Program-made: the position numbers and the translations under genes | Assembly: GCA_003164925.1 (NCBI GenBank) | Contig: PLRV01000074.1 | Coordinates: 1,945-61,772 of the forward strand | Origin: Caulobacteraceae bacterium | GTDB lineage: Bacteria; Pseudomonadota; Alphaproteobacteria; Caulobacterales; Caulobacteraceae | Length of the DNA stretch: 59,828 nt | Direction: 5' to 3' | Notes under the pieces: model-generated | Database searches by the model: none | What the model was told of the DNA's origin: nothing | The model's input: only the letters and a program-made list of their open reading frames with translations | Shown here: positions 7,098 through 51,598 of the stretch, one piece after another | How the letters are laid out: every line of letters starts with the position of its first letter | Numbering within the stretch: the first letter of the stretch is position 1

Positions 7098-8489
7098 TCA
7101 GTAGCGATAATGATCGGGTTTGAACGGCCCTTCGACCGTCACGCCGATATAGGCGGCCTGGTCGGGCTTGAGCTGCGTGAGGGCGGCGCCCAGCTTGCCC
7201 AGGTGCAGCATGGCCACCTTCTCGTCCAGGCGCTTGGGCAGGGTGTAGACCTTGTTCCCATAGGCCACGCGGTTGGTCCACAGCTCGATCTGGGCCAGGG
7301 TCTGGTTGGTGAAGGACGCGCTCATGACGAAGGACGGGTGGCCCGTGGCGTTGCCCAGGTTCACCAGGCGCCCCTCCGACAGCAGGATGATCTTGTTGCC
7401 GTCGGGGAACTCCACATGGTGGACCTGCGGCTTGATCTCGTCCCACTTGAAATTGCGCAGGGCGGCGACCTGAATTTCGGCGTCGAAGTGCCCGATGTTG
7501 CAGACGATGGCGTTGTTTTTCATCCCCCGCATATGCTCGAGGGTGATGACGTCCTTGTTGCCGGTGGCGGTGACGAAGATATCGCCGTCCTTCAGGGCGC
7601 CCTCCATGGTGCGCACCTCATAGCCTTCCATGGCCGCCTGCAGGGCGCAGATGGGATCGACCTCGGTGACGATCACCCGCGCGCCGCCCTGGCGCAGGGA
7701 GGCTGCCGAGCCCTTGCCCACGTCGCCGTAACCGGCCACCACCGCCACCTTGCCCGACAGCATCACGTCGGTGCCGCGGCGGATGGCGTCGACCAGGCTC
7801 TCGCGACAGCCATAGAGATTGTCGAACTTGGACTTGGTCACGCTGTCGTTGACGTTGATCGCGGGGAACGGCAGATCGCCCTTCTCGGCCATCTGATACA
7901 GGCGGTGCACGCCGGTGGTGGTCTCTTCCGAAACGCCAGTGACGCTATCGCGAATGGCCGAATAGAAGCCCGGCTTTTCCTTCAGATAGCGCTTCATCAC
8001 CGCGTACAGGCATTCCTCTTCCTCGTTCTGCGGATGGTCCAGCAGCGAGGGGTCCTGTTCGGCCTTGGGACCCAGCACGCACAGCAGGGTGGCGTCCCCG
8101 CCGTCGTCCAGGATCAGGTTGGGATAGCCGCCGTCCGACCATTCGAAGATGCGGTGGGCATAGTCCCAATATTCCATCAGGGTTTCGCCCTTGACCGCGA
8201 ACACCGGCGTGCCGGTGGCGGCGATGGCGGCGGCGGCGTGGTCCTGGGTGGAGAAGATGTTGCACGAGGCCCAGCGCACGTCCGCGCCCAGAGCCTGCAG
8301 CGTTTCGATCAACACGGCGGTCTGGATGGTCATGTGCAGCGAGCCGGCGATGCGGGCGCCCTTGAGCGGCTTGTCCTGGCCGAACTCGGCGCGCAGGGCC
8401 ATCAGCCCCGGCATCTCGGTCTCGGCGATGGCGATCTCCTTGCGGCCCCAGTCGGCCAGGGCAAGGTCGCGCACGATATAGTCGGCCAT
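7098..8489 (-). CDS. ahcY: Adenosylhomocysteinase
   Basis: 463 residues. It hydrolyses S-adenosylhomocysteine to adenosine and homocysteine, relieving inhibition of methyltransferases. The signatures are complete: [15 protein letters not shown], the NAD loop [10 protein letters not shown], and the C-terminal KPDHYRY tail of the family. The start is ATG 8489 (MADYIVRDL), preceded by AAAGGAG; the frame is open to 8615, but that extension crosses the operator and lacks family similarity. A palindromic operator lies 60 bp upstream, suggesting control by the methionine/SAH cycle. Confidence 0.97.
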
Positions 8490-8647: not shown

Positions 8648-9032
8648 ATCCGCTCGCCCCGGCGAAGGCCGGGGTCCAGGTCATAGAGCACTGCGGTGTC
8701 ATTTTACGTCTACATCATGGCCAGCGGCCGCAATGGGACGCTCTATGTCGGCCACACCGACGATCTTCCTGGCCGGGTCTGGCAGCATAAGAGCAAGGCT
8801 CGTCCCGGATTCACCACCAAGTACGGCTGCGATCTCCTGGTCTGGTGCGAGGTTCACGACGAACGCGAGACAGCCTTCCGGCGCGAGCGGCAGATCAAGG
8901 AATGGCGCAGGGTTTGGAAGTTGAGGCTGATCGAGGAGATGAATCCGGATTGGGCTGACCTCAACGAGACGCTCAATTGTTGAGGCCGGGGCCTTATGAT
9001 CTGGACCCCGGCCTTCGCCGGGGCGAGCGGAT
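8648..9032 (+). mobile_element. GIY-YIG gene framed by 38-bp inverted repeats
   Basis: Left arm 8648-8685 and right arm 8995-9032 are inverted copies, 37 of 38 positions identical. Each arm contains its own hairpin (CCCCGGC-gaag-GCCGGGG and its complement). The GIY-YIG gene fills the interior with only about 10 bases between each arm and the coding sequence. This is the layout of a minimal mobile or REP-type unit with its own nuclease. No target-site duplication was recognised. A related solo hairpin lies at 13583-13614. Confidence 0.6.
8696..8983 (+). CDS. Small GIY-YIG nuclease (URI/YhbQ-like)
   Basis: 95 residues, one GIY-YIG domain and nothing else. The motif elements are in place: Tyr4-Val-Tyr6 for GIY, Tyr17-Val-Gly19 for YIG, catalytic Arg27, His31, and Glu64 as metal ligand. 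Such single-domain proteins are predicted DNA endonucleases of unclear role. The start is GTG 8696, just inside the left inverted repeat; there is no strong ribosome site. All catalytic residues are intact, so the protein may be active. The flanking repeats suggest it belongs to a repeat-propagating unit rather than to the neighbouring housekeeping genes. Confidence 0.88.
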   Translation: MSFYVYIMASGRNGTLYVGHTDDLPGRVWQHKSKARPGFTTKYGCDLLVWCEVHDERETAFRRERQIKEWRRVWKLRLIEEMNPDWADLNETLNC

Positions 9033-9074: not shown

Positions 9075-9512
9075 ATGAGCGCCGCTGCAATGCCCACCCA
9101 TCCGCCCCTCCCCTCCAAGCTGCCTCTGCAGATCGTGATCGCCCTGGCCGGCCTCGTACCCGTGGGCGCGGGGCTGGCGGGGGTGCTGGCCGGGCCGGGC
9201 TTCGCGGGCCATGGCGCGGCCGACGCCTCCATCGACAGCCACTTCAGCTATCTGTCCGGCCTGTTGCTGGCCATCGGCCTGGCTTTCTGGCAGGCGATCC
9301 CGACCATCGAGCGGCAAGGCGCCCGGGTGCGGCTGCTGACCGTCCTGGTGTTCGTGGGCGGGCTGGGTCGGCTGGTCAGCCTGGCGCGCGTGGGGGCGCC
9401 CGACCTGCCCATGCAACTGGCCTTCGTCATGGAGCTGCTGGTCACGCCCGCCATCTGCCTGTGGCAATGGCGTCTTGAGCGACGGATGGACGCGGAGCTC
9501 GCCGCAGTCTAA
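9075..9512 (+). CDS. DUF4345-type integral membrane protein
   Basis: 145 residues with about four hydrophobic segments (roughly 18-43, 57-78, 85-103 and 112-131). The central motif SHFSYLSGLLLAIGLAFW and the later FVGGLGRLVSL stretch match DUF4345 membrane proteins, a family without known function. It ends 11 bases before murI on the same strand and is probably co-transcribed. Confidence 0.7.
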   Translation: MSAAAMPTHPPLPSKLPLQIVIALAGLVPVGAGLAGVLAGPGFAGHGAADASIDSHFSYLSGLLLAIGLAFWQAIPTIERQGARVRLLTVLVFVGGLGRLVSLARVGAPDLPMQLAFVMELLVTPAICLWQWRLERRMDAELAAV

Positions 9513-9523
9513 AGCCCGGCGCC

Positions 9524-10375
9524 ATGGCGATCGGCGTGTTCGATTCTGGGGTCGGCGGACTGTCGATCCACCGGGCTCTGGTGGAGCGGTTTCCCACGGC
9601 TGACTTGGTCTATCTGGCTGACCAGGCCCACACGCCTTACGGCCGCCTGCCGGGCGAACGGATCGTCGACCTGACCCGGCAAGGATGCCAGCGCCTGTTC
9701 GACGCGGGCGCGGATCTGGTGGTCCTGGGCTGCAACACCGCCTCGGCCATCGCCCTGCGCCGCCTGCAGCAGACCTGGCTGCCCCAGCTTCGCCGTCAGC
9801 GCGATCGGCCGACCAATATCCTGGGCATCATCGTGCCGACCATCGAGGCCGCCACCGGCCTGCCCTGGACCCAGGAGCCGGAGCGCCCGCCGGAAAAGGC
9901 TGAGGCGCTGGAGACCCTAGGGGTGTTCTGCACGCCGCAAACGGCGGCCAGCCGCGTCTATGAGATCGAGATTGACAAGCGGCGGGGCGACCTGGCCGTG
10001 TTCGTCGAGCCCTGCCCGGAATTGGCGCAGCTGATCGAGGGCGGAGCCTCGGCCGACATCTTGTGTGCGGCGATCCTCAGCCACGCGGACAATCTGACCC
10101 GCCGCGTGGGCCGGCCGCCCGACCGCTTCATCCTTGGCTGCACCCACTACGAACTGGCCGGCGACCTGTTTCGCGCCGTCTTGCCCGATGGCGCCGCCCT
10201 GATCCACCAGCCGGGCGCCACGGCCGACGCCCTGGAGCGCTATCTGGCGAGCCACCCGGAGTATGACATCGGATCGCGCGGCCTGCGCCGTTTTCTCACC
10301 ACGGGCCAGCCCGGTCCCCAGAAAGGCCTGGTGGAGGCGTTCTGGGGCGGGCCAATGGTGTTCGAGGCGGTTTGA
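9524..10375 (+). CDS. murI: Glutamate racemase
   Basis: 283 residues. It makes D-glutamate for peptidoglycan. Both catalytic cysteines are present, in VVLGCNTAS and FILGCTHYEL, along with the N-terminal FDSGVGGLS motif and the PYGRL segment. A loop with PPEKAEALET lies around residues 122-132; otherwise the protein is typical in size. It follows the DUF4345 gene closely, and a large palindromic repeat separates it from the convergent ahpD. Confidence 0.95.
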   Translation: MAIGVFDSGVGGLSIHRALVERFPTADLVYLADQAHTPYGRLPGERIVDLTRQGCQRLFDAGADLVVLGCNTASAIALRRLQQTWLPQLRRQRDRPTNILGIIVPTIEAATGLPWTQEPERPPEKAEALETLGVFCTPQTAASRVYEIEIDKRRGDLAVFVEPCPELAQLIEGGASADILCAAILSHADNLTRRVGRPPDRFILGCTHYELAGDLFRAVLPDGAALIHQPGATADALERYLASHPEYDIGSRGLRRFLTTGQPGPQKGLVEAFWGGPMVFEAV

Positions 10376-10406
10376 ACCCTTCGCGCAGCGAAAAAGGGAA
10401 GAATTG

Positions 10407-10475
10407 AACCACGAAGATCACGAAGACCACCAAGAGCGCGGCGCTTCCTTCGTGTTCTTCGTGATCTTTGTGGTT
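10407..10475. repeat. 69-bp palindromic dispersed repeat (aaccacgaag type), copy 1
   Basis: The arms AACCACGAAGATCACGAAG and CTTCGTGATCTTTGTGGTT form a long imperfect hairpin between the convergent murI and ahpD genes. A second copy of the same 69-bp length with five differences is at 24159-24227. This element type recurs in many bacterial genomes (its translation reads HEDHEDH). It may act as a bidirectional transcription stop. Confidence 0.85.
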
Positions 10476-13582: not shown

Positions 13583-13614
13583 ATCTGGGCCCCGGCCTCT
13601 CGCCGGGGTGGGCG
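13583..13614. repeat. Solo hairpin related to the GIY-YIG unit arms
   Basis: ATCTGGGCCCCGGCCTCTCG begins a copy that aligns with the right arm at 8999-9029 with a few substitutions and keeps the CCCCGGC-loop-GCCGGGG stem. It has no associated nuclease gene. It lies in the 313-bp stretch 13534-13846, which otherwise holds only the inverted repeat below and no convincing gene. Confidence 0.6.
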
Positions 13615-21695: not shown

Positions 21696-23396
21696 ATGGA
21701 CGAGCAACAGATTCACTTTGAAGTGTTCGTGCGGCGCAACCCTGCCTCATCAATGGCTTTGGAGCTGGCCACAGAAAACCGGGCTCACGCGCTGGAGTTC
21801 GCCGAGCAGTTCCTGATTGCGGCCCCGGATGGGGCGGTGCGCGTGTCCAAGGAGACGCGTGACCCGGACACGGGCGATTATCGTTCGGTGACGATCCTGG
21901 CCAAGGGCGCGCCCGAAAAGCGCCGCTCCAAGACCCCGACGGAGGACGCCGGCCCGCCCTGCGTGGCGCCGCAGGACCTTTATAGCGTGCACGCCCGCCA
22001 GAGGATCGCGCGTCTGCTCGAAGGTTGGCTTGGGCGCAACAAGGCCACCGCCTTCGAGTTGCTGCACCGCCCCGATCTGGCCGAGAAGCTGGAAGCCAGC
22101 GGCACGGATCTGCAGCACGCGGTGCAAAAAATCGCCATTCCCGAGGCCCAGGCGCGCGGCTTGTCCGTGCACGAGGTCATTCGCACCTTCAATGGCCTGA
22201 TCGAACGGGCCATTAGCCGGCTGATCAAGGACGGCCGACGCGGCGCCCTGGCCCGCTTCGAAAAGAGCAGTTTCGCCGGGGCCTGCCGACGCGTGGCCGA
22301 GGATGCGGAGCCGGCCTACAAACTCGGCGGCGGGGTGGCGGCCTATTTGGCCGACGCCAAGAGTTGGAGCGCCAAGATCGACCGATTGCTCGATCTGGCC
22401 GATGCGGCGCCCGCCGAGCCCAAATTGCGCAAGCTGGCCTTCGAAGTGCTGGAACAGCCTTTGGGCGAGATCATGGGCTCGCCTCTGGGCATGTCCGAGC
22501 TGCTCGGCCCGGACCTGGATCTAGGCGGAAGCCTGACAGCCATGACGCGGCTGGCCGCCGGACCGATCGTAGACATGATGGCCACGGCCGATCCCACGGT
22601 GGCGCGGATGATGCCGCGCCTGACCGGGTCGGCGGAACGGCTATCGCGCTGGATGGAAGGCGACTACTTCCAGAGCGTGCACATCGCGATCGGGCGCAAG
22701 GTGCTGGCCGAGATCAGAGCCGTGCGGCGCCTGCGGCCGACCGACGCCCAGGCCGAGATCGACGTGCTCCGCGCCCTGGCCATGACGCTGACCGCCGCAG
22801 GCGGGAAGATGCTGCCCCAGGAGGACGTGCGCGAGGCCTTCATCGAGCGTTCACGCATGCTGGTCGGCGCCGAATTCATCGCCTCCGCCTTAGCCAAGGC
22901 CGAGGACGCTCCGGAGGAGGTTCGCGCCCTGGTGCGCATCGCCGAGAATGTCACCGGCCCCACCAATAAGCGTCAGGCCGGCCAATGGCTGGTCGGCGCG
23001 GTCACGGCCCTACGCTTCGAGAAGGAGCTGCGCGAGGCGCGCGACCCACCCGGCCAGCGCCTGGCGACCCTGGCCGATCTGCAGCGCGCGGTGGCGCGCG
23101 TTGGCGTCGGCGAGGCCGACCGCCAGCTGATCGTGCGGCGTCTTGGCGATATCGGCGGCCTGATCGAGGCCGACGCCCGCCTGATCGATCAGATCCTGCA
23201 CTCGCCCACCGGCCCGATGCAGCGGTTGGGTCTGTTGCTTCGCCTGGCCCTGGGCGAGGCCGCCCCGATCGGCCCGGCGGCGGACAGGGCCAAGGCCGCC
23301 GCTCTCAAGCTGGCCCGCGAGCCCGCCACTCGCGCCGAGCTGGCGCGCGCGCCCGAGGTGCTGGAGCGCCTGCGACCCCTGATGAACGCGGCATAG
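21696..23396 (+). CDS. Uncharacterised large helical protein divergent from chvI
   Basis: 566 residues; no domain recognised. The first about 70 residues look like a small alpha/beta module (IHFEVFVRR; VTILAKG), the remainder is predicted all-helical and rich in Ala, Leu, Arg and Glu. There is no signal peptide or membrane segment, so it is probably cytoplasmic. Coding character is strong and length is uninterrupted. The start ATG 21696 lies 150 bp from the chvI start. Its stop TAG (23394-23396) is the first three bases of a GANTC repeat. Function is unknown; its position suggests a possible link to ChvI. Confidence 0.8.
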   Translation: MDEQQIHFEVFVRRNPASSMALELATENRAHALEFAEQFLIAAPDGAVRVSKETRDPDTGDYRSVTILAKGAPEKRRSKTPTEDAGPPCVAPQDLYSVHARQRIARLLEGWLGRNKATAFELLHRPDLAEKLEASGTDLQHAVQKIAIPEAQARGLSVHEVIRTFNGLIERAISRLIKDGRRGALARFEKSSFAGACRRVAEDAEPAYKLGGGVAAYLADAKSWSAKIDRLLDLADAAPAEPKLRKLAFEVLEQPLGEIMGSPLGMSELLGPDLDLGGSLTAMTRLAAGPIVDMMATADPTVARMMPRLTGSAERLSRWMEGDYFQSVHIAIGRKVLAEIRAVRRLRPTDAQAEIDVLRALAMTLTAAGGKMLPQEDVREAFIERSRMLVGAEFIASALAKAEDAPEEVRALVRIAENVTGPTNKRQAGQWLVGAVTALRFEKELREARDPPGQRLATLADLQRAVARVGVGEADRQLIVRRLGDIGGLIEADARLIDQILHSPTGPMQRLGLLLRLALGEAAPIGPAADRAKAAALKLAREPATRAELARAPEVLERLRPLMNAA

Positions 23397-23526
23397 AGCC
23401 CGACGGCTTCATCTTGAAGCTCTTGAGCGCGATGGGTTTAGGTGGAATCGCCTAAACGCTGAATCGTGCTCGAGATTCAAATATGTAGAGCCGGATTCAG
23501 ACTTCGAGAGAAGTCATCCGGCTCTA
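23394..23526 (-). repeat. GANTC intergenic repeat, copy C (composite)
   Basis: It opens with a forward half of module 1 (23394-23422), followed by module 2 in reverse orientation (about 23423-23470, inner stem GTTTAGG...CCTAAAC partly intact) and a full reverse module 1 (23490-23526, pairing AGAGCCGGAT with ATCCGGCTCT). Several GANTC sites are present. Its first three bases are the stop codon of the left gene, and its last three are the stop codon of the convergent right gene. Confidence 0.85.
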
Positions 23527-24117: not shown

Positions 24118-24158
24118 GATCGGCTCTTGGTCGCGTGGCGGCGGCGTCGAAGAATTTG

Positions 24159-24227
24159 AACCACGAAGATCACGAAGACCACCAAGAGCTTGGTGTTTCC
24201 TTCGTGTTCTTTGTGATCTTTGTGGTT
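24159..24227. repeat. 69-bp palindromic dispersed repeat, copy 2
   Basis: Same length and design as 10407-10475 with five substitutions, four of them in the loop region. It lies 41 bp upstream of the DUF1801 start and just beyond the mmcB stop, a spacer between two leftward genes. Confidence 0.85.
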
Positions 24228-25153: not shown

Positions 25154-25498
25154 ATGACCCGCCAAACTTCCCGACAGCTTGGGTGTCGAGCGGTGCTCTT
25201 GACCGCAGGCGCCCTGGGCTTGGCCTTCGCCGCGTCTACGGCCTTGGCCCAGACCGCCCAGGATAATGGCGGGGCCCACACCGACCAAAACAGCAAGGGC
25301 CCGGTCGTCGTTCACGCCGCCCCTACGCAGCATCGACCCCGAATTGGCATACCGCCTGCAAAGGCCGCCGCCTACGCCTCGGAAGCGGCCCGAAACGACG
25401 CTTGGCGAAAATATCGCAGCGGCGCCCCTTCGGTGACCACCAGCACGAAGGATCTCGCACAGGATTATCCAGGCCTGCGAACCTATGTTCCGCACTAG
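25154..25498 (+). CDS. Small exported protein of unknown function
   Basis: 114 residues with a clear signal peptide (AVLLTAGALGLAFAASTALA, cleavage after ALA near residue 32). The mature part is short, polar and Pro/Gln/Asn-rich, without cysteines or a known domain; it ends DYPGLRTYVPH. The stop TAG (25496-25498) is supplied by the first bases of a GANTC repeat. Probably periplasmic. Confidence 0.65.
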   Translation: MTRQTSRQLGCRAVLLTAGALGLAFAASTALAQTAQDNGGAHTDQNSKGPVVVHAAPTQHRPRIGIPPAKAAAYASEAARNDAWRKYRSGAPSVTTSTKDLAQDYPGLRTYVPH

Positions 25499-25599
25499 AG
25501 CCGGATGACTTCTCTCGAAGTCTGAATCCGGCTCTACATATTCGAACCTAGAGCACGATTCAGCGTTTAGGCGATTCCGCCTAAACCCATCGTGCTCTA
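25496..25599 (+). repeat. GANTC intergenic repeat, copy D (most complete)
   Basis: The cleanest copy. Module 1 (25496-25538) pairs AGAGCCGGAT with ATCCGGCTCT around an inner ACTTCTCTCGAAGT. Module 2 (25549-25599) pairs TAGAGCACGAT with ATCGTGCTCTA around the perfect inner stem GTTTAGGCG-attc-CGCCTAAAC. Three GANTC sites (GAATC, GATTC, GATTC) sit in or next to the stems. Both ends read TAG/CTA. Confidence 0.9.
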
Positions 25600-25733
25600 G
25601 CGTGCTGGATCTGACGGTAGGTTTTCTCCGCTCGCAGCCTTGGCGGGTGCAACGGCGTCCGGTCTCCAGCCCGTTTGCCGCTTCAATCGTGCGCCGCCCC
25701 AAGCCCTTAGGCCATCCTATCGCTTGGTTTGGC

Positions 25734-34879: not shown

Positions 34880-36598
34880 ATGAAGCGGTTGGGGTGGGGG
34901 CCTCTGACCATCAGGGTTCGGCTCGGGATGGCGCTGGCCGCCGCCCTGGCGCCGATTCTTTTGCTCGGAGCCGCTCAATCCGTCGTCGCCGTGCAGCGCG
35001 ACGCACAGGAGCGGCGCATCATCCTGACAGCGGCGGCCGAACGCAGCGCCGCGGTGGCGCGCGCGCGCATGCAGGGGGCTGAAGTGGTGCTGGAAACCAT
35101 CACGCCCGAAGCAATGGGGTTCAGTTGCGCGCCACAGTTGCGTCTGCTGATGGACCGATTGACCGGCTACGCCAATCTGATCCGCTTCGATCCGAACGGC
35201 CGGGTCGCGTGCGCCGCGGCCAATGTCCCGTCTGACCCGGCCCGGCCTCGCTCCGCATGGTTCACCGCGCTCCGGACCGGACGGGCCGCGACCGTGTCCA
35301 GCGCCCCGCCAGGGGCCTATGCGGCCGAACAGGCGGTGATCACCTCCGTGCGCGAGCATGACAGTCAGAACCGGTTCACCGGCGCCTTGTCGGCCGTGAT
35401 CCTGCTCTCCAGCCTCAAGCCCGATCTGAACGACCGGAGCCTGCCGGCCGGCACCCAAGTGGCCCTGGTCGACCAAAACGGCGATTTCTTGATCCGCTCC
35501 GACGTGCGCGCCTTCAGCGGCCTGCCTCCGGGCGGCATCGCCAGCGCAGCGCGGGGCTCGCTGTACTACAGGGGCAAGGACGCCGTCGGCAACGCGCGCG
35601 TCTACGCCGCGGCCCCGTTGATCCAGGATGTGGCCGTGGTGCTCTCCGCGCCAGACGAAGGGCTGTTCTCCTGGGCCAAGCTGAACCCCCTGTCGGCGGT
35701 GCTGCTGCCGTTGGCGGCCTTCTTCGTGGCTTTGGCGGCGGTGTGGATCGTGGCCGAGCAGGTGGCCGTGCGGTGGTTGCACTATCTGGATCGGGTGGCC
35801 GCCATCTACGCTCGAGGCCGCTACACCGTGCGGCCGATCAAGGCCGCGACGGGGCCGCCCGAAATCCGCGCCCTGGCCCACTCCCTGGACATCATGGCCG
35901 AGGCCATCGCCGGGCGCGACCAGTCCTTGCGCGAGTCCCTGGCCCAGAAAGACGAGCTCATGCGGGAGATTCACCACCGGGTTAAGAATAATCTCCAGGT
36001 GATTTCCTCCCTGCTCAACCTGCAGCAGCGGGCCCTGGCCGACCCCGCAGCGCGCGCGGCCATATCCGACACCGGCCAGAGAATCGGCGCCTTGGCTCTG
36101 ATCTACCGGGCGCTCTACGAGGGGCCGGATCTGCAACGGGTCGATCTGGGCCAGTTCATGGATGAACTGATCGGCCAGATCATGTCGGCCGGCGCGCACG
36201 ACCATCCCGCGATCAAGACCGACCTGGAGGCCGACGAACTGGTCGTGGACCCCGACAAGCTGGCGCCTTTGGCCCTGTTTGCGGTGGAGGCGATCACCAA
36301 CGCCCGCAAGCACGCCTTCGCCGAGGGCGGCGTACTGCATGTCCGTTTTCGTCTGAAGGGCGATACGGCGGTGCTGGAGGTGGCGGACGAAGGGTCCAAG
36401 ATCAGCTCGCCGGTGATCGGTGATGGGGTGGGCCACACGCTCATGACCGCTTTCGCGCGCCAATTGCACGGCGCGGTCGAGATCGTACCCAATGAATCCG
36501 GCGGCGTGACCGCCCGGCTGACCTTCCCGGTCTCAAAGGCCGGACGCGCGGACTCTACGCCCAGCGCTCCACGACGCGCCCGCAGCGCGGCGGCCTGA
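34880..36598 (+). CDS. phyK: Membrane sensor histidine kinase PhyK
   Basis: 572 residues. A membrane segment (about 14-36), a periplasmic sensing region with Cys83 and Cys111 (a conserved periplasmic cysteine is important for stress sensing in Caulobacter PhyK), a second membrane segment (about 272-293), HAMP-like linker, and a HisKA_2 domain with MREIHHRVKNNLQVISSLLNLQ (His366 of the HRxxN box) plus HATPase (VEAITNARKHAF). It phosphorylates PhyR. It starts 4 bases after ecfG and belongs to the same operon. Confidence 0.92.
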   Translation: MKRLGWGPLTIRVRLGMALAAALAPILLLGAAQSVVAVQRDAQERRIILTAAAERSAAVARARMQGAEVVLETITPEAMGFSCAPQLRLLMDRLTGYANLIRFDPNGRVACAAANVPSDPARPRSAWFTALRTGRAATVSSAPPGAYAAEQAVITSVREHDSQNRFTGALSAVILLSSLKPDLNDRSLPAGTQVALVDQNGDFLIRSDVRAFSGLPPGGIASAARGSLYYRGKDAVGNARVYAAAPLIQDVAVVLSAPDEGLFSWAKLNPLSAVLLPLAAFFVALAAVWIVAEQVAVRWLHYLDRVAAIYARGRYTVRPIKAATGPPEIRALAHSLDIMAEAIAGRDQSLRESLAQKDELMREIHHRVKNNLQVISSLLNLQQRALADPAARAAISDTGQRIGALALIYRALYEGPDLQRVDLGQFMDELIGQIMSAGAHDHPAIKTDLEADELVVDPDKLAPLALFAVEAITNARKHAFAEGGVLHVRFRLKGDTAVLEVADEGSKISSPVIGDGVGHTLMTAFARQLHGAVEIVPNESGGVTARLTFPVSKAGRADSTPSAPRRARSAAA

Positions 36599-36629
36599 GG
36601 GCGATTCCGCCTAAACCCATCGTGCTCTA
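36599..36629 (+). repeat. Half copy of GANTC repeat module 2, copy F
   Basis: The right half of module 2 only: GCGATTCCGCCTAAACCCAT then CGTGCTCTA. It begins at the phyK stop and ends exactly on the cheR stop codon (cta 36627-36629), filling the entire convergent intergenic gap. Confidence 0.8.
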
Positions 36630-37454
36630 GGCGGCCCCCTGGAGCAGGTCCGGCGCGCGGATGTACAGGCCGCGACGGCCGGGCACCGGCCGGAACGCCT
36701 TGGTCACGCCGGCCACCGCCTCGTTCAGGCCCAGAATGAGAAAGCCGTCGTCGGAGAGGGCCAGGGCCAGTTGGTCCAGCACCATCGCTCGGGTGGACTC
36801 ATCGAAGGCGTTCAGCACGTTGCGGCAGAAGATGACGTCGAACTGGCCTACGGCGCGCAGATCGGCGAGCAAGTTCATCCGCCGCCAGCGCACCATCTGG
36901 CGGATGCGCGGCGAAAGCACCCAGGCGTCCTCGACCTTTTCGAAGTATTTGATGAGCAGGCGCGAGGGCAGCCCCCGCTGCACTTCGAAATGAGTGTACA
37001 GGCCCGTGTGGGCCTTCTCCAGGCACCGCTCGGACAGGTCGCTGGCGAAGATATCGACCTTCAACCCGGCATGAGAGCCCCGCTCTTCGTCCACCAGCAT
37101 GGCCAGGGAATAGGGCTCCTGGCCGGTGGCGCAGCCTACGCTCCAGATGCGGATCGGGTCCTGTCGGCTGCGGGCGAGGACCGGGAGGATATCGTTACGC
37201 AGTTGATCGAACGGTGTGCGATCCCGGAAAAATAGCGTTTCAGTCGAGGCCATTGCTTCCACCACGGTCCAGATGAGTTTTTCATCGCGTCGTTCCGCAA
37301 TTTCGCGGATCAAGCCACTGATGCCGGGAAAGCCCTCCCTGCGCGCCACGGGCGCCAGCCGGCTTTCGATGAGGTAGGTTTTGTCCACGTCCACGATCAC
37401 GCCGGAACGGCGGCGGACCAGATCGGCGACCAGGGCGATTTCCTGCGCCGTCAT
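36627..37454 (-). CDS. cheR: CheR-type chemoreceptor methyltransferase
   Basis: 275 residues. An N-terminal helical CheR_N domain (VADLVRRRSGVIVDVDKTYLIESRL) and the SAM-binding domain with IWSVGCATGQEPYSLAML and FDVIFCRNVLNAFD. It methylates glutamates of chemoreceptors. It overlaps the cheY-like gene by four bases. The TAG stop is part of repeat copy F. It is separate from a main che operon, as with the accessory cheR/cheY pair beside chpT in Caulobacter. Confidence 0.93.
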   Translation of the reverse strand: MTAQEIALVADLVRRRSGVIVDVDKTYLIESRLAPVARREGFPGISGLIREIAERRDEKLIWTVVEAMASTETLFFRDRTPFDQLRNDILPVLARSRQDPIRIWSVGCATGQEPYSLAMLVDEERGSHAGLKVDIFASDLSERCLEKAHTGLYTHFEVQRGLPSRLLIKYFEKVEDAWVLSPRIRQMVRWRRMNLLADLRAVGQFDVIFCRNVLNAFDESTRAMVLDQLALALSDDGFLILGLNEAVAGVTKAFRPVPGRRGLYIRAPDLLQGAA

Positions 37455-44865: not shown

Positions 44866-44920
44866 CGTGGGATCGCCCTGTTCAAGCCCAACCGATCGCC
44901 GTCAAAAGCGTTTAAGGTTT

Positions 44921-44980
44921 CAAGTCTGATGATTTCACCTTGAAGCCTCAATCAGGCTCTACATTTTTGAATCTGGAGCA
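44921..44980 (+). repeat. GANTC repeat, module 1 only, copy G
   Basis: TCTGATGATTTCACCTTGAAG leads to TCAATCAGGCTCTACATT and then TTTTGAATCTGGAGCA. Only module 1 and the linker remain. It lies in the 340-bp interval 44673-45012 shortly before the glutamate dehydrogenase start; that interval holds the terminator, this repeat and no gene. Confidence 0.7.
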
Positions 44981-45012
44981 CCCCAGGCGGGCGCGGACGT
45001 AGGCAGGGCCTT

Positions 45013-49869: not shown

Positions 49870-49879
49870 GCCGCCATTT

Positions 49880-49984
49880 TAGAGCCCGACGGATTCGTCT
49901 TGATGCCTGAAATCAGGCTCTACCTATTTGAATTTATTCATGATTCATTGTTTAGGCGATTCCGCCTAAACCCATCGCGTTCTA
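49880..49984 (+). repeat. GANTC intergenic repeat, copy H
   Basis: Module 1 (49880-49921) AGAGCCCGACGGATTCGTCT and TCAGGCTCT, then linker, then module 2 with perfect inner GTTTAGGCG-attc-CGCCTAAAC and ending CATCGCGTTCTA. The last three bases are the purH stop codon. It occupies the entire gdhZ-purH convergent gap. Confidence 0.88.
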
Positions 49985-51598
49985 ATGCTTGAACACCCGC
50001 ACGCCGGTGAAGGCCATGGTCAGGCCGTGGGCGTCGGCGGCCTCGATCACCTTGCCGTCACCCATGGAGCCGCCCGGCTGGATCACCGCCGTGGCGCCGG
50101 CTTCCGCCGCCTGGATCAGGCCGTCGGGGAAGGGAAAGAAGGCTTCAGAGGCACAGGCGGAGCCTTGGGCCAGGCTTTGCGGCAGACCGGCCGTCTGCGC
50201 CGCCTCGGCCGCGCGAATGGCGGCGATGCGCGCGGAATCGCGCCGGTTCATCTGACCCGCGCCGATGCCGGCCGTCTGGCCATCCTTGGCGAACACGATG
50301 GCGTTGGACTTGACATGCTTGGCGATGGTGAAGGCGAACAGCATGTCCTTCACCTCCTGGTCGGTGGGTTGGCGCTTGGTGACGATCTTCAGGTCCTCGG
50401 CGGTGATCCGCGCATTGTCGCGCGACTGCACCAGGAAGCCGCCGGCCACCGAGCGGAACACCTCGCCCTCGGCCAGGGGGTCGGGCAGGGCGCCCGATAG
50501 CAGGAGGCGCAGGTTCTTCTTGGCCAGGAACACCGCGATGGCGTCATCGTCGGCGTCCGGCGCGATGACCACTTCGGTGAATATCTTGACCATCTCCTCG
50601 GCCGCGGCCCGGTCCAGCTTGCGGTTCACCGCCACGATGCCGCCGAAAGCCGACACCGGATCGCACTCCAGCGCGCGCGCATAGGCGCTCGTCAGGTCCG
50701 GACCCAAGGCCACGCCGCAGGGATTGGCGTGCTTGATGATCGCCACCGCCGCGCTGGCGGCCGGATCGAACTCCGCCACCAGCTCCAGCGCCGCGTCGGT
50801 GTCGGCGATGTTGTTGTAGCTCAGCGCCTTGCCCTGCAGTTGGCGGGCCGTGGCCACGCCCGGCCGGCGCGGCTGCGGGAACACATAGAAGGCCGCGCTT
50901 TGGTGGGGGTTTTCGCCATAGCGCATGGTCTGGGCCAGCTCGCCCGACAGGCTCTTCCTACGCGGCGCGACCTCGCCGAGCTGACGCGCGAACCAGGCGG
51001 AGATGGCTCCGTCATAGGCCGCTGTGCGGGCATAGGCGCGCGCCGCCAGCCGCCGGCGCAGGCTCAGCCGCGTGCCGCCGTCAGCGTTCAGCGCCTCCAG
51101 CACCTCGGCCATGTCCTCAGGTTCGGTGCACACCGACACATAGGCGTGGTTCTTGGCGGCCGAACGGATCATGGCCGGGCCGCCGATATCGATGTTCTCG
51201 ATGCATTCGTCGAAGGCCGCGCCCTTGGCCACGGTCGCCTCGAACGGGTAGAGATTCACATAGAGCAGGTCGATGCCGCCGATGCCGTGATCAGCCATGG
51301 CTTCGGCGTGATCGGGCGCCTCGCGGACGCCCAGAAGGCCGCCGTGAACAGCGGGGTGCAGCGTCTTGACCCGCCCATCCATCATTTCGGGAAACCCCGT
51401 GAGCTCCGCCACATCCTTCACCGGCAGCCCCGCCGCGGCGATGGCCGCCTTGGTGCCGCCGGTGGACACCAGCTCGATCCCGGCCGCCGCCAAGGCGCGG
51501 GCGGCCGCGACCAGGCCAGTCTTGTCCGATACGGACAACAGAGCGCGGCGGATCGGCTGCAGGTCGGCGGCTTGGGGATAGTCGGGGGCGGCGGGCAC
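49982..51598 (-). CDS. purH: Bifunctional AICAR transformylase/IMP cyclohydrolase
   Basis: 538 residues. It catalyses the last two steps of IMP synthesis. The N-terminal IMPCH domain starts near [19 protein letters not shown] with [16 protein letters not shown]; the C-terminal AICARFT domain has [13 protein letters not shown] and [13 protein letters not shown]. Start ATG 51598; the TAG stop is part of repeat copy H. Confidence 0.96.

Follow-up and report, generated by a model that had tools for sequence, protein, structure and literature searches.

A GIY-YIG nuclease gene between inverted CGTC-type REPs: a probable gene-carrying form of a dispersed bacterial repeat

We analysed a stretch of 59,828 nt of DNA from a Caulobacteraceae bacterium (contig PLRV01000074.1), referred to below as the window, in which a small nuclease gene lies between two inverted copies of a REP (Table 1). 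The whole unit takes 385 bp; its arms, 38 nt each with 309 nt between them, are complementary at 37 of 38 positions (97%), and their inverted alignment has an SW score of 35. The gene has a GTG start, is the sole ORF between the arms and is set off from them by 10 nt on the left (8686-8695) and 11 nt on the right (8984-8994). An earlier sequence-only reading of this DNA had reported the arm match, an intact 95-residue GIY-YIG gene at about 10 bases from the arms and hairpins formed by the arms themselves; all of these were reproduced. Folded as single-stranded DNA, each arm makes a hairpin whose stem has 7 bp and whose loop has 4 nt, at -10.0 and -9.7 kcal/mol, a result that is weak on its own, with z of -1.7 and -2.0 against shuffled sequences and 15 and 10 of 200 shuffles folding as well. 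The related gene-less arm seen in the same reading is indeed present; with its extra loop base the predicted fold has an 8-bp stem and a 5-nt loop.

Table 1. The unit and neighbouring features, in window coordinates
Feature	Position	Strand	Description
Left arm	8648..8685	+	CGTC-type REP; head CCGCTC outward, tail CCAG facing the gene; stem 8657-8663/8668-8674
GIY-YIG nuclease gene	8696..8983 (stop codon included)	+	Intact, 95 aa; Pfam match and AlphaFold2 model
Right arm	8995..9032	-	REP of the left arm, inverted; stem 9006-9012/9017-9023
Solo REP of the unit's arm type	13583..13614	-	Gene absent; loop one base longer
ahcY (adenosylhomocysteinase)	7098..8489	-	Flanking gene, outside the unit
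DUF4345 gene	9075..9512	+	Flanking gene, outside the unit
murI-like gene	9524-10375		Next after the DUF4345 gene; outside the unit

The window carries other repeats as well. A second dispersed family, with copies of up to about 105 nt, was seen at 2733-2843, 23390-23526, 25496-25600, 36584-36630, 44916-44982 and 49876-49993; some copies contain the palindrome GGCGATTCCGCCTAAACC. Across ∼2 kb, the copy at 23422-23526 is matched in inverted orientation, at 94%, by that at 25496-25600. A 72-nt hairpin repeat (ACCACGAAGATCACGAAG...) is present in two copies, 93% identical, at 10404-10475 and 24156-24227.

The protein matches the Pfam family GIY-YIG (PF01541, 5.6e-15) over residues 3-74 of 95 and no other Pfam family; it has no match in NCBIfam. 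Its AlphaFold2 model is one confident GIY-YIG domain (mean pLDDT 95.2), for which the nearest PDB entry is UPF0213 protein BH0048 (E 8.8e-5), with the GIY-YIG domains of Slx1 and UvrC coming weaker. Fold and size are those of the YhbQ/UPF0213 GIY-YIG proteins (PDB 1zg2; phmmer 2e-4, Foldseek 8.8e-5). Residues Y17, G19, R27, H31, E64 and N83, which we take to belong to the GIY-YIG active site, are invariant in 32 aligned rows.

Members of the Ssn family are described as site-specific single-strand nucleases. According to Chenal et al. (Nature Communications, 2025), such GIY-YIG enzymes reportedly cut single-stranded DNA at a Neisseria sequence present in hundreds of copies, with homologues having other specificities, and they are said to play a role in Neisseria transformation. 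This description would make outdated the view, given in the sequence-only reading, that the role of single-domain GIY-YIG proteins is unsettled. The window protein resembles Ssn in being a single-domain GIY-YIG protein with the catalytic residues kept, and it shares 52% identity with the homologue of N. gonorrhoeae, presumably the Ssn of the 2025 paper. Unlike the Neisseria system, with its clustered repeats and its reported role in transformation, here we see compact units at many intergenic sites, suggesting mobility.

The arms resemble the CGTC-tagged REPs defined by Di Nocera et al. 2013 (PMC3733652). In the part of that paper available to us, these REPs end on one side in an unpaired tag, CGTC or else TGTC or CCTC, and on the other in a CCA-like tail, with a stem of 8-9 bp and a loop of 4-5 nt; they occur mainly in alphaproteobacteria, often as inverted pairs, and 'apparently lack a dedicated transposase'. 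The dRS3 repeat of Neisseria, where large repeat clusters are found, is counted there as a member. The window arm resembles this description in being a short palindrome with an unpaired CGTC-like head and a CCA-type tail, set in an inverted pair; the dispersed, often paired copies typical for CGTC REPs are found for this arm type in its own genome. It differs in the head CCGCTC, in the predicted 7-bp stem, and in having GC where AT is given for the stem start. The exact CGTC head is present in other units of the family (e.g. L052, L055, L116 and L137), and CGTC or TGTC in many loci of the wider scan described below. A further difference from the REPs as published is the GIY-YIG gene between the window pair, whereas the available part of the paper gives no gene partner.

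The arrangement recurs. The same genome has a second GIY-YIG gene, 42% identical, which is also placed between inverted hairpin arms, of a different sequence. Homologues were found in 89 of 150 genomes of the family, 1 to 6 in each. Among 100 fetched stretches plus the window, 99 of 102 genes had enough flank for an arm test, in which inverted arms with an SW score of at least 16 were accepted; 58 of the 99 genes had such arms. In the control for chance, random windows with the same spacing at the same loci, the score was reached by 1 of 1565; in the control for own-arm fit, upstream and downstream flanks of different genes paired with each other, by 140 of 990. The second figure shows that REPs are alike between genomes; own arms still fit better. 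By reading, the heads point outward in the best-aligned pair of 53 of the 58 armed units.

No arms were detectable at the remaining 41 of the 99 genes. A gene kept at conserved positions, the case that the sequence-only reading had named against itself, is not what we saw: the 99 genes fall into 82 site clusters, as defined by DNA similarity, by which old shared sites may be split. Some arm-less genes are common to related species at one site; in this set, arm-less genes were not commoner at shared sites (arms at 42/70 single versus 16/29 shared; Fisher p 0.66). On a protein tree of 96 rows arm presence changes 23 times versus 31.3 times when shuffled (1 of 500 shuffles as low), indicating that arms are clustered on the tree, yet were gained or lost many times.

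Beyond the family, the best 80 of 559 relatives in named genomes were taken, of which 75 were usable (one of these loci also belongs to the family set). Arms were present at 43 of the 75; in the controls the score was reached by 2 of 768 windows from the same loci and by 98 of 750 mismatched pairings. Titles among the 43 armed loci name Gammaproteobacteria, Deltaproteobacteria, Bacteroidetes, Omnitrophota, Parcubacteria and Moraniibacteriota; most of the records are assemblies of metagenomes or single cells, which makes individual taxa uncertain. In the class-level set, where 124 of 289 genomes gave a match, arms were seen at 14 of 29 loci versus 12 of 290 mismatched pairings, the one control used there. 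Paired arms around GIY-YIG genes of related genomes, for which the sequence-only reading had proposed a search, were thus found in the family, wider and class-level sets alike. Loci from a plasmid collection, hand-picked from 35 records, had arms in 9 of 10 cases (those of L167 are not CGTC-like). A Rhizobium tumorigenes plasmid (L162) has a GIY-YIG gene with no detectable arms, perhaps a fixed, arm-less form; eight Rhizobium plasmids match at the same level of identity. No homologue of the window protein was found in phage records at 1e-5. The genome samples were even draws, and the loci were best matches, hence biased to close relatives.

Arms and proteins vary together. We compared 49 units with an arm score of at least 20, having set aside 3 of 52 in which no start codon could be identified. 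The more alike the proteins, the more alike the arms: across 1045 pairs from different genera Spearman rho is 0.535, a value reached in 0 of 1000 permutations. Unconstrained DNA of 30 nt would hardly remain similar between units whose proteins are 55-70% identical; we therefore infer that the co-variation reflects constraint between enzyme and repeat, with a contribution from joint inheritance of the linked unit, which could also produce such a pattern. Recognition of the hairpin by the GIY-YIG protein, as suggested in the sequence-only reading, fits the co-variation; the 41 arm-less homologues in the family sit less well with it.

The repeat is dispersed. Five further copies of the window arm core, at no more than three mismatches, are found in its own genome, where the related family pattern gives 19 strand hits (control pattern, 0). 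A CGTC-type REP pattern for the family has hits, counted per strand, in 97 of 150 genomes, and its reversed control in 0 of 150. Five or more REP hits occur in 63 of the 84 genomes that have the gene and in 10 of the 66 that lack it (p 0.0002 when labels are permuted within genera). A genome was taken to have the gene if it held a homologue at E 1e-15 or better, and five genomes with weaker matches count as lacking it. Earlier loss of the gene could explain the ten gene-less genomes with that many hits. In one genus (g14; 23 of the 150 genomes) no homologue was found, and the REP pattern had no hits in 22 genomes and two strand hits in the remaining one.

Arm-like copies have a density of 16.3 per Mb in the unit's own genome (27 copies), 6.1 in other genomes of that genus and 3.2 in other genera, with bases summed over units and stretches used repeatedly. 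In the examined stretches themselves a further arm copy was present for just 11 of 52 units; for the window unit none was found within 80 kb at up to four ungapped mismatches, a search that missed the copy at 13583 for its extra base. The stretches hold 26 gene-less copies; all 10 pairs of neighbours among them stand head-outward, and in 8 of these pairs the spacer measures 61-85 nt. One unit (L045) is flanked by two whole REP pairs, ∼132 bp; similar elements, at ∼80-87% identity, stand alone at other places in its genome (G101:C1:3324581-3324713 and 3791808-3791947) and in other congeners, and look like miniature elements.

Units are present at a site in some genomes and absent in others. In Azospirillum lipoferum 4B a unit with two REP pairs occupies the gap between sufB and sufC; in A. 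ramasamyi, A. oryzae and B510 this gap measures 87 to 129 bp and holds no gene, the flanks being about 95-97% identical, and in the three aligned relatives there is no REP at the empty site. No target-site duplication was seen at the Azospirillum unit, where ∼20-40 adjacent nt have diverged and the ends are not base-exact. In a Shinella genome the sufB-sufC gap is occupied too, by an armed GIY-YIG gene that differs from the one in A. lipoferum and is probably an independent insertion. On Sphingobium plasmids the unit lies between fnrL and a response regulator gene (fixJ) in TYG46, TYG73, MM15 and MM7A; TYG64 and TYG74 have a lone double-headed palindrome in this gap; TYG72 has neither, with another hairpin-like sequence in the gap, and in TYG65 the unit is absent.

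A third site, in genus g22, was surveyed at 30 loci from 75 genomes, the query's own included; both flanks were usable in 13. Genus g22 is probably Caulobacter, as a stretch of one of its genomes (L100, G121) is identical to a locus of Caulobacter sp. HMWF025 (L209). By reading, two of these 13 loci have units, whose arms differ, and three have a REP pair without the gene; double-headed palindromes stand at two, a single REP, a different gene and an ambiguous sequence at one each, and three hold nothing. At locus L293 (G452:C134) the unit site is taken by ∼670 bp of other sequence with no GIY-YIG match, which may point to a hot spot for insertions. For the window copy, adjacent DUF4345 and murI genes were seen at 10 of 17 other loci returned, with the GIY-YIG gene in none. 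The upstream stretch of the two nearest species with this gene pair is unlike that of the window; thus the window copy lies at a synteny break and lacks a precise empty site among them. The comparison of sites with and without the unit, proposed by the sequence-only reading, therefore gave empty sites in Azospirillum, Sphingobium and g22, none of them base-exact (adjacent bases have diverged at the insertion ends), and no comparable one for the window copy. Together with the co-occurrence and the variety of sites, these empty sites favour the minimal GIY-YIG repeat-mobilising system proposed in that reading; the many homologues with no detectable arms speak against it.

The Sphingobium double-headed palindrome equals the outer halves of the left and right arms of the MM15 unit joined together. 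Owing to their palindromic stems, two head-outward REPs double as direct repeats; deletion between them gives the double-headed form. If pairs stand head-outward, this form is expected to be common and a double-tailed form rare. We saw double-headed palindromes in 45 of 150 family genomes (a palindrome may be counted twice, once per strand) and double-tailed ones in 1 of 150, with a pattern that was stricter than the double-headed one, as the outer bases vary. A rerun with a shorter double-tailed core gave matches in 14 of 150 genomes; among the matches listed one had two mismatches and the others three, and the latter, by reading, were ordinary REPs with another head. Deletion between REPs needs no special enzyme; thus the double-headed form shows collapse, not nuclease action, and may arise through host recombination alone. 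Insertion of a unit into a double-headed palindrome is the other possible origin of the alternation.

We consider it probable that the window unit is a gene-carrying form of a dispersed REP with its own Ssn-like GIY-YIG nuclease, analogous to REP/RAYT systems and using an unrelated enzyme. As in those systems (REPtrons, REPINs; TnpA_REP), a nuclease gene of low copy number stands between inverted REPs of its own genome, and gene-less REP pairs are found in the same genome; in contrast to them, the enzyme is of the GIY-YIG type, with no HUH motif or catalytic tyrosine (Y1_Tnp), and the head is CGTC-like rather than GTAG. As judged from the sequences, the GIY-YIG protein would nick its own REP and take part in its movement. 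REPs would fold in single-stranded states, e.g. during replication; the nuclease would recognise its REP (hairpin plus head or tail) and nick one strand; the unit, or the ∼130 bp gene-less REP pair, could then be copied or joined into other intergenic sites; and recombination or slippage between head-outward REPs could drop the intervening DNA, leaving a double-headed palindrome. Whether the proposal extends further, with GIY-YIG enzymes as dedicated, HUH-independent mobilisers of CGTC REPs acting through single-stranded hairpins in many phyla, the gene-less pair being a miniature and the double-headed palindrome an excision scar, is to us an evenly balanced matter.

One could suppose instead that the nuclease regulates processes with single-stranded DNA (uptake, recombination, plasmid transfer) by cutting REPs as targets, that REPs spread otherwise, and that linkage or autoregulation of gene and REP is favoured. 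The N. gonorrhoeae homologue (51.7% identical) does lie among dRS3-like CGTCATTCCCGC repeats, the reported role of Ssn in Neisseria transformation is of this kind, and arm/protein co-variation suits any kind of recognition. However, gene and arms are present or absent together at a site, the gene has 0 to 6 copies per family genome, and REP number tracks gene presence within genera, which a target-only role would not predict; we regard this possibility as somewhat unlikely.

Homing would be another route: the GIY-YIG enzyme would cut REP palindromes or pairs that lack the gene, and recombinational repair, with the flanking REPs as homology, would copy the unit into them in the manner of free-standing homing endonucleases; the spread of REPs would be a separate process. 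The GIY-YIG fold is found among homing endonucleases, and the unit alternates with a solo palindrome at the Sphingobium site and with REP pairs and palindromes at the g22 site. Homing is nevertheless unlikely, as there is no REP at the empty site in the three Azospirillum relatives and in 3 of the 13 informative g22 loci, and as REP number itself tracks the gene.

That RAYT-type HUH transposases (Y1_Tnp) move these REPs with the GIY-YIG gene as a passenger is highly improbable. The genome of the window has one Y1_Tnp gene, but it lacks inverted arms (best score 10). Across the family, 25 of 150 genomes have Y1_Tnp; of the 73 genomes with at least five REP hits, just 15 have it and 63 have the GIY-YIG gene. 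A tyrosine transposase gene flanked by CGTC REPs was not found by Di Nocera et al. 2013, according to the part of the paper available (PMC3733652). Finally, that two REPs of a common type flank a small gene by chance, as the score reached by mismatched pairings might suggest, is refuted by the counts: the same-locus controls against the arms found in the family and wider sets rule out a chance pairing.

In a literature search we found no paper linking GIY-YIG enzymes with REPs or dRS3, which is not proof that none exists. Other papers listed dealt, judging by their titles, with restriction enzymes, casposons, mitogenomes and similar subjects. Co-mentions of GIY-YIG and 'rayt' proved to be letters of an author's name, and in the part available of the RepRanger paper of 2025 (PMC12306157) the words nuclease and RAYT are absent. 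Some of the link between a GIY-YIG enzyme and REPs may already be in print, in the Ssn work of 2025.

Small repeats of the CGTC type are widespread, chiefly in alphaproteobacteria, and how they spread was described in 2013 as an unanswered question (PMC3733652). Our observations suggest that the GIY-YIG family is the missing partner of this large class of scattered bacterial repeats. If this is true, one 95-residue protein and one 30-nt hairpin would make a minimal mobile system, and many genes annotated merely as 'GIY-YIG nuclease family protein' would acquire a genomic role.
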